Shown one piece after another: positions 9,281 through 10,927 of a DNA stretch of 32,821 nt; the stretch's first letter is position 1, and the number at the start of each line of letters is the position of its first letter. The notes beneath the pieces were generated by a model that did no database searches, had not been told where the DNA came from, and worked only from the letters and a program-made list of their open reading frames with translations. The stretch lies in NCBI GenBank assembly GCA_016869145.1, contig VGEU01000028.1, forward strand, positions 1-32,821, in the 5' to 3' direction. The stretch comes from Alphaproteobacteria bacterium. Lineage in GTDB: Bacteria; Pseudomonadota; Alphaproteobacteria; MPNO01; VGEU01. The translations under genes were made by a program, and so were the position numbers.

Positions 9281-9544
9281 ATGCGTGACATCGAGCGTCA
9301 GTTGCAGGGCTACCGGTTGACGACCGCCGAGATCACCTACCGGCTGCCCGATTTCCCCGAGTTGTTGCAGATCTTCGTGTGGCAGAAGCTCGCCCTCGCC
9401 CCGCGCTTCCCCGAGCTCAAGCGCTTCCTCGCGTATTGGGAATCGAACCTCGACGGCCGCATCCACTCGGTGCGGGTCGCGGGCGCGGGGATCATCGCGC
9501 CGGCCGCGCTGCGCCATGCCCGCGCGGAATATCGGCTGCACTGA
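9281..9544 (+). CDS. Usg family protein
   Basis: An 87-residue protein of the Usg-like family, a small conserved alphaproteobacterial family of unknown function. Family sequence runs through the whole length: LQGYRLTTAEITYRLPDFPELLQ (split across residues 8-30), FVWQKLALAPRFPELKRFL (32-50) and a C-terminal LDGRIHSVRVAGAGIIAP (about 57-74). ATG 9281 is preceded by GACGGAG and begins where family homology begins; the longer frame from 9227 adds unrelated residues. Immediately downstream lies an array of four terminator-like hairpins, so transcription from usg probably ends there. Confidence 0.88.
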   Translation: MRDIERQLQGYRLTTAEITYRLPDFPELLQIFVWQKLALAPRFPELKRFLAYWESNLDGRIHSVRVAGAGIIAPAALRHARAEYRLH

Positions 9545-9548
9545 GGCG

Positions 9549-9672
9549 CCCGCCGCGCATCGGCGCGGCCTCTTGCACGTGCGCCGCACATGAGCGCGGC
9601 CGCTTTAGTACCCGCCGCGCATGAGCGCGGCTTTTTGCCACCCGCCGCGCATGAGCGCGCGGCCTCTTTCGC
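9549..9672 (+). repeat. Four tandem ~31-bp repeats, each a terminator-like hairpin
   Basis: Four copies of a 30-31 bp unit follow usg. Each has a 6-bp GC stem CCGCGC, a 4-nt loop and GCGCGG, then a short T-rich tail. Stems lie at 9553-9568 (loop ATCG), 9584-9599 (CCGCAC, one mismatch, loop ATGA), 9615-9630 (perfect, loop ATGA, followed by CTTTTTG) and 9645-9660 (loop ATGA, 3' arm GCGCGC). T-rich tails occur only in the plus direction, so all four are oriented to end usg transcription. The near-identical units point to local duplication. They could also attenuate transcription into ctaA. Confidence 0.75.
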
Positions 9673-9806
9673 GATTGCCGGGCGGGGCGGCGGCCGCTAA
9701 GTAGCCGGGGCGCTGCAACCAGGCTCCGGCACCCGCCATCGCCACCGCGGTCTCCGCCTCGACCCGAAACCGCCCGATCATCGCGTGGCTCATTGTCTGC
9801 TGCGCG

Positions 9807-10799
9807 ATGGTCTTTGCGATGGTGGTGATCGGCGGGCTGACACGGCTGACCGAATCCGGTCTCTCGATCGTCCGCTGGCAGCTCGTCACCGGCACGCTGC
9901 CGCCGTTGAGCGAGGCCGCGTGGCAGGAGCAGTTCGATGCCTACCGCGCGACGCCGGAATTCCAGAAGCGGAACTTCTGGATGGGTCTCGACGACTTCAA
10001 GTCGATCTTCTGGCTCGAATATCTCCACCGCCTGTGGGGCCGGATGATCGGCCTCGTCTTCGCGCTGCCCTTCGCCTGGTTCCTGTTCCGGGGCCGCCTC
10101 GACCGCCCGCTCGCCTGGCGGCTCGGCTTCGTCTTCTCCCTCGGCGCGCTCCAGGGCGCGCTCGGCTGGTTCATGGTCGCGAGCGGCCTGGTCGACCGTC
10201 CGGACGTGAGCCACTACCGGCTCGCGATGCATCTTCTCCTGGCGCTCGTGATCTACGGCTTGCTGCTCCGGATCGCGCTCGGCCTCCGCGACGGGCCGGC
10301 GCTGCCGTCCGCCGACCGCCGCCACATCGGGCTCGGCCGTGTCCTCCTCGGCTGGATCGGGCTGACCCTCGCCTGGGGTGCCTTCGTCGCCGGGCTCGAT
10401 GCCGGGGCGATCCACAACACCTTCCCGCTGATGGGCGAGGGGCTCATTCCGCCCGGGGCCTTCGCCTTCGAGCCTTGGCCGCTCAACCTGGTCGAGAACC
10501 CGGCGACGGTGCAGTTCATCCACCGGGTGCTGGGGACCGGCGTACTCGTCCTCGCGCTCGCGCTCTGGCTCACCGCGCGGGGCGCGTCGGGCCGGCTCGA
10601 GCCGGCGGCGCTCGGCATCCTCGCCATGGCCGCCATCCAGGTCGGGCTCGGCATCGCGACGCTCCTGACCGGCGTCGCCCTCGCGCTCGGCGTCCTCCAC
10701 CAGGCCGGCGCCGTCGTCCTCCTCAGCCTCGTCCTCTGGTATCTCCATCTCGCCCACCGGCGACGGCGTGTCGCATCGGGGTTCGAGCCGGCGGCTTGA
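9807..10799 (+). CDS. ctaA: Heme A synthase (CtaA/COX15); true N-terminus probably upstream
   Basis: Membrane enzyme that oxidises heme O to heme A for aa3-type cytochrome oxidase. From the first ATG (9807) the product is 330 residues. Four likely heme-ligand histidines are visible in YLHRLWGRMIG (about 78-88), HYRLAMHLL (about 136-144), FIHRVLGTG (about 237-245) and VLHQAG (about 300-305), with about seven or eight hydrophobic helices. The ATG falls inside the first helix. In-frame codons upstream (9738-9806) encode RNRPIIAWLIVCCA, which looks like the real helix start, yet between the in-frame TAG (9702-9704) and 9807 there is no ATG, GTG, TTG or CTG. ATC 9738 or ATT are the only non-standard options. 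An in-frame ATG at 9651 precedes the TAG. Confidence 0.85.
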   Translation: MVFAMVVIGGLTRLTESGLSIVRWQLVTGTLPPLSEAAWQEQFDAYRATPEFQKRNFWMGLDDFKSIFWLEYLHRLWGRMIGLVFALPFAWFLFRGRLDRPLAWRLGFVFSLGALQGALGWFMVASGLVDRPDVSHYRLAMHLLLALVIYGLLLRIALGLRDGPALPSADRRHIGLGRVLLGWIGLTLAWGAFVAGLDAGAIHNTFPLMGEGLIPPGAFAFEPWPLNLVENPATVQFIHRVLGTGVLVLALALWLTARGASGRLEPAALGILAMAAIQVGLGIATLLTGVALALGVLHQAGAVVLLSLVLWYLHLAHRRRRVASGFEPAA

Positions 10800-10824
10800 C
10801 CGCGCGCCGCCGCGGCGCTAATGG
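10796..10824 (+). promoter_or_regulatory. Candidate sigma-70 promoter for the metZ riboswitch transcript
   Basis: TTGACC (10796-10801) overlaps the ctaA stop codon. GCTAAT or TAATGG (10817-10824) follows after 15-17 bp. Start of transcription near 10829 would coincide with the first base of the SAM-II aptamer. Confidence 0.5.
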
Positions 10825-10829
10825 ACGGG

Positions 10830-10884
10830 CGTGGTGATTTGGCCCGACTGGCTTGCAGCCACGTTAAACAACTCGCTAAAAGGT
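10830..10884 (+). ncRNA. SAM-II riboswitch (metA element) upstream of metZ
   Basis: The stretch fits the SAM-II aptamer, a pseudoknot that binds S-adenosylmethionine in alphaproteobacterial methionine genes. P1 is formed by CGTGG (10830-10834) and CCACG (10859-10863). The conserved TGATTTG loop follows P1 (10835-10841), TTGCAG precedes the second P1 strand, and the conserved tail TTAAACAACTCGCTAAAAGG (10864-10883) completes the pseudoknot. The length of about 55 nt and the position before metZ are typical. Recognition is by consensus from memory, not a covariance model. Confidence 0.85.
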
Positions 10885-10900
10885 CGGCGCGGAACGATGA

Positions 10901-10927
10901 CCCTGGCCCGCCGGCCGGGGTTTTTTT
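10901..10927 (+). terminator. Intrinsic terminator of the metZ SAM-II riboswitch
   Basis: CCCTGGCC (10901-10908) pairs with GGCCGGGG (10913-10920) across a CGCC loop, giving 8 bp with one G-T pair. It is followed directly by seven T (10921-10927). It lies 16 nt after the aptamer and 26 nt before the metZ start, so it is the likely expression platform: high SAM should favour termination. A short GGTC (10882-10885)/GACC (10899-10902) pairing could act as antiterminator, but this is weak. Confidence 0.85.

Follow-up and report, generated by a model that had tools for sequence, protein, structure and literature searches.

Tandemly copied terminator-like hairpins between usg and ctaA, and private hairpin arrays at other gene 3' ends of an alphaproteobacterial genome

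Introduction

Why does the gap between two genes hold the same terminator-like hairpin four times over? The question is raised by the region between usg and ctaA, the gene for heme A synthase, in an alphaproteobacterial window of 32,821 nucleotides, by which we mean the whole stretch of DNA that was analysed. An original prediction had described a tandem array of four terminator-like hairpins in this gap and had proposed tunable attenuation, slippage-driven variation in copy number or the local expansion of a small repeat. In this study, the anatomy of the array, the distribution of its unit and the occurrence of similar arrays in the same genome were analysed.

Results and Discussion

The usg gene (positions 9281–9544, plus strand; Pfam PF06233, E 6e-34) is an open reading frame whose start at 9281 was set by its relatives. 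The array (9545–9676, plus strand) comes straight after its TGA stop codon (9542–9544, plus strand) and consists of four hairpin units with a period of 31, 31 and 30; the reading frame of ctaA (9705–10799, plus strand; Pfam PF02628, E 4e-103), the start of which is uncertain, lies 3' of it. TRF called the array at 9582–9659 with a period of 30 and a score of 105, as compared with a maximum of 87 among 2000 dinucleotide shuffles of 9545–9806, none of which reached 105. The head-to-tail copying exceeds chance, as at a tandem repeat locus, and the four near-identical units are found where they had been predicted.

Hairpin 1 (9552–9569, plus strand) has a 7-bp stem, the loop ATCG and the tail CTCTTGCACG; hairpin 2 (9583–9600, plus strand) has a stem with an A·C mismatch, the loop ATGA and the tail CGCTTTAGTA; hairpin 3 (9614–9631, plus strand) has a 7-bp stem, the loop ATGA and the tail TTTTTGCCAC; and hairpin 4 (9644–9663, plus strand) has a 7-bp stem, the 6-nt loop ATGAGC and the tail CTCTTTCGCG. 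Their distances from the usg stop are 7, 38, 69 and 99 nt, respectively. The arms are GCCGCGC and GCGCGGC in units 1, 3 and 4, in which the stem is 7 bp and not 6 bp as had been predicted. The left arm of unit 2 is GCCGCAC, and its mismatch, which adjoins the loop in the plus-strand RNA and is a G·U pair on the minus strand, goes together with a folding energy of −8.8 kcal/mol as opposed to about −14 kcal/mol in the other units. The predicted 4-nt loop, ATCG or ATGA, is present in units 1–3 but not in unit 4.

As in intrinsic terminators, the four GC-rich stem-loops lie 3' of usg on the transcribed strand, and their T-rich tails are present on the usg strand only, right behind the usg stop. 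The 10 nt past hairpins 1–4 contain 3, 4, 5 and 4 T, and a genuine T-run is confined to unit 3. This unit (TTTTT), which had been singled out for its T-run, is the best terminator and the only one to pass a terminator scan. Like intrinsic (Rho-independent) terminators, including natural tandem ones, the array places a GC hairpin with a T-rich tail behind a gene, several in a row; it differs from natural tandem terminators in that its copies arose by tandem duplication of a single unit, mostly have weak T-runs and are not independent terminators. One good T-run in four units and one unit with a weakened stem are the weak points of the terminator reading. The weak T-runs of three of the four units would also fit mRNA-stabilising 3' hairpins with a REP-like effect, in which case Rho would terminate transcription further on and exonucleases would trim the transcript back to the hairpins. 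This is further favoured by the finding that only 55 of the 770 3' regions in this genome had a hairpin with at least four T in the next eight bases; canonical intrinsic terminators may be few in this genome. The good T-run of unit 3 and the T-richness of all four tails argue against a purely stabilising role, which we regard as possible, albeit on the unlikely side.

As a whole, the region has a folding energy that is ordinary for its composition (z = −0.9 to −1.15), so that the case for the array lies in its repetition and conserved arms rather than in overall stability. In the usg array, departures from the consensus were found in 1 of the 42 stem cells and in 15 of the 36 loop and spacer cells (Fisher, 2e-5), the final spacers being excluded from these and the following counts. 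In the five arrays that were found by TRF with no hairpin criterion, the respective numbers were 2 of 128 and 9 of 114 (p 0.03), and in all of the arrays pooled they were 3 of 180 and 24 of 154, although this conservation of the arms is partly biased by the arrays that were spotted through their hairpins and rests on few substitutions in every array except that of usg. The steadier arms are consistent with a published survey in which the inverted-repeat arms near terminators were less variable than their spacers (PMC13155455). They also bear on a neutral explanation, in which slippage would have copied whatever separated usg and ctaA, the hairpins would be passengers without effect, and the conservation of the stems would be a mere appearance that arose from recent duplication or from the way in which the arrays were found. 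However, the extent to which the usg-array spacers have drifted while the arms have not indicates that the duplication is too old to account for the conserved stems.

A genome search for the unit, which had been suggested as a check, confined it to the usg–ctaA locus, so that it is not the abundant genome-wide repeat that would have spoken against the prediction. The perfect 16-base core had no second locus in a pattern search of the whole genome, and a DNA search of this genome and 26 others from its order revealed no other copy of the full array, the other matches being short fragments with an E of 0.001 or worse. Among plasmids, nothing resembled the unit, and none of the usg–ctaA pairs that were found adjacent in other bacteria had such an array in the gap. 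The array is authentic and apparently lineage-specific. A chance insertion after usg from a family of dispersed palindromic repeats, such as REP or BIME, would explain a palindromic, intergenic unit, but it is contradicted by the presence of the unit at this locus alone; this candidate was rejected and we give it next to no credence. REP and BIME elements are likewise palindromes 3' of genes that are able to form 3'-end hairpins, but REPs share their sequence over hundreds of loci. The TAACTGA direct repeats of the Beggiatoaceae (PMC4679880) share a single heptamer that mostly lies immediately before start codons, whereas each array that is described here has its own sequence, carries hairpins and lies at the 3' end of a gene. 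Among the open-access papers that were searched for tandemly duplicated terminators, no direct precedent was found.

The proposed tunable attenuation, here of ctaA, was not supported. An attenuator in this position would set the read-through from usg to ctaA, with either a signal or the number of copies doing the tuning; the array does lie between two same-strand genes, and its identical arms could pair across units in an alternative fold. Against this, no aptamer or other known RNA was found by Rfam at the array, the array is not conserved with the usg–ctaA pair in other genomes, and similar arrays occur between convergent genes, a setting that offers no downstream target for attenuation. We consider attenuation to be very unlikely.

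A scan of 1.96 Mb, about half of the genome, in which the genes were called by a simple codon-usage method, revealed at least six further arrays with a like architecture (24–31 bp units, 2–4 copies), each with a private sequence; all of them sit at gene 3' ends and none at 5' ends. The array after a zinc dehydrogenase gene (L135, 13443–13540) has its first hairpin starting 2 nt past the stop, and in the array after an alpha/beta hydrolase gene (L172, 2027–2108) the hairpin starts 0 nt past it. The first hairpin has the stop codon within its loop in the array between the genes for an FAD enzyme and an ABC ATPase (L187, 19465–19535), in that at L222 (19374–19457) and in that after ubiD (L144, 2354–2404). 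After pntB, between convergent genes (L197, 16985–17071), the first hairpin is about 40 nt past the stop. Most of the flanking genes were recognisable and their functions are unrelated (UbiD, PntB, zinc dehydrogenase, alpha/beta hydrolase and ABC ATPase). The usg array is one case of a tendency in this genome for several unrelated genes to end in private tandem hairpin arrays.

A mechanical search for pairs of similar hairpins 18–65 bp apart at both gene ends gave eight matches at seven loci in 770 3' regions, while there were none in 963 5' regions or in shuffles. The array of the window was given and L144 was chosen through a pattern hit, and the other five loci came from an unbiased scan; these five, set against zero at 5' ends, give a p of 0.017. 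Six of the seven arrays begin with a hairpin that overlaps the stop or is at most 7 nt from it (background 31%, p 0.005), and without the two preselected loci this holds for four of the five (p 0.04). Additionally, hairpins of at least 5 bp were present in six of the nine 3'-end arrays as compared with 22% of random 3'-end stretches, which argues against hairpins being mere passengers; both this test and the comparison of the arms with the loops and spacers are post hoc on few loci and provide moderate evidence. A stop codon in a hairpin loop was also considered as a genome-wide rule and was not supported (with stems of 5 bp or more, 107 cases as compared with 88 in shuffles; with 7-bp stems, 11 vs. 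10.6).

Intergenic minisatellites abound in this genome. In its non-coding DNA, 26 minisatellites of any kind were counted in 275 kb, as compared with 1 (about 122 kb) and 3 (93 kb) in the comparison samples (p about 0.001), and this higher density suggests that the arrays are probably made by a general slippage-type duplication. No tandem hairpin pair was found in 507 3' regions from comparison genomes (0.75 Mb of the same order plus 0.5 Mb from an assortment of 80 ctaA loci), a contrast that is not significant by itself (p 0.16). Like bacterial minisatellites or VNTR loci, the arrays have head-to-tail units of 24–31 bp in 2–4 copies with a private sequence per locus; they differ in carrying a conserved hairpin and in lying at gene 3' ends, often from the stop codon. 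A copy number that differs between strains, as at VNTR loci, would be plausible. The abundance of minisatellites favours the neutral explanation, as does the fact that several are hairpin-free, some of these lying between divergent genes, which means that duplication does not require a hairpin. Moreover, duplications of a gene end would be tolerated because the first copy retains the stop codon. Taken with the drift of the usg spacers and the hairpin frequency at gene 3' ends, we hold a wholly neutral origin to be fairly unlikely.

Other minisatellites were recorded during the survey. At L159 (11388–11515), a 15-bp unit (TGACGTTACGATGCC) is repeated 6.5 times between two divergent genes with no hairpin and is followed by an 18-bp tandem repeat. 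At L171 (19338–19429), a 25-bp unit that is repeated 3.7 times takes in the final codons of a gene for a GMC oxidoreductase together with its TGA stop; this array is a duplicated extreme gene end and its hairpin is only short. In another alphaproteobacterium, a Zavarzinia contig (L109, 3950–4013) has an 18-bp unit (GCCGGGCCTGAGGCGCTG) repeated 3.6 times that overlaps the end of ctaA, i.e., a tandem array over a stop codon.

We consider it rather probable that local tandem duplication multiplied the 3'-end hairpin of usg and that selection has maintained its stems as redundant signals of the 3' end. The array would then be the 3' end of the usg transcript. The ancestral 30–31 bp just past the usg stop would have comprised a GC hairpin and a pyrimidine-rich tail, from which local tandem duplication, probably by replication slippage, would have produced the four copies. 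The loops and spacers have drifted and the arms have been retained, which we infer to be the work of selection. In the plus-strand RNA, each copy is predicted to fold and could serve as a terminator or as a hairpin that protects the 3' end. The expansion by tandem duplication of terminator-like hairpins in the direction of usg is the part of the original interpretation that found support, and that interpretation was, as a whole, partly supported.

The position of the copies suggests what the repetition may offer. In E. coli, the lambda terminator tR2 was almost fully repressed when it was placed a few nt past a stop codon, where the ribosome blocks the hairpin; the repression was gone and termination was maximal beyond about 27–30 nt from the stop (PMC4824070). 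By analogy, the folding of copy 1, which is 7 nt past the usg stop, may be hindered by a ribosome on the stop codon, while copies 2–4, at 38, 69 and 99 nt, would be outside the ribosome zone and could, hence, act as a backup in forming the 3' end and protect ctaA from read-through. Since the first hairpin is stop-proximal and the later copies are further out, the first copy would be weak and the repeats useful; this putative advantage is drawn from the anatomy and from one published system. The array after pntB does not fit this idea, as its first hairpin is already about 40 nt past the stop.

Extended to the lineage, tandem copying of stop-proximal hairpins could be a selected route to working transcript ends, in which the ribosome blocks the hairpin at the stop codon, duplication puts copies past its reach and each gene acquires its own array. 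We find this extension doubtful. By itself, the usg–ctaA gap offers modest biology in the form of redundant 3'-end hairpins. If the genome-wide pattern holds, however, it shows that simple local copying is a way for transcript ends to evolve, and the arrays would provide a natural series of two to four hairpins at known distances from the stop for studying the interference between ribosomes and termination.

Two further features of the window lie downstream of the array. The ctaA frame (9705–9809) has no in-frame ATG, GTG or TTG ahead of the ATG at 9807, only ATT and ATC codons being present upstream of it, and a start at this ATG would truncate the first membrane helix (IIAWLIVCCAMVFAMVV), so that the frame either begins at an unusual start codon or contains a sequence error. 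The sole Rfam match in the window is a SAM-alpha (SAM-II) riboswitch at 10821–10899 (67 bits). It is followed by a strong terminator-like hairpin with TTTTT (10899–10922), and both lie upstream of a gene that encodes a Cys/Met PLP-enzyme (metZ-like).
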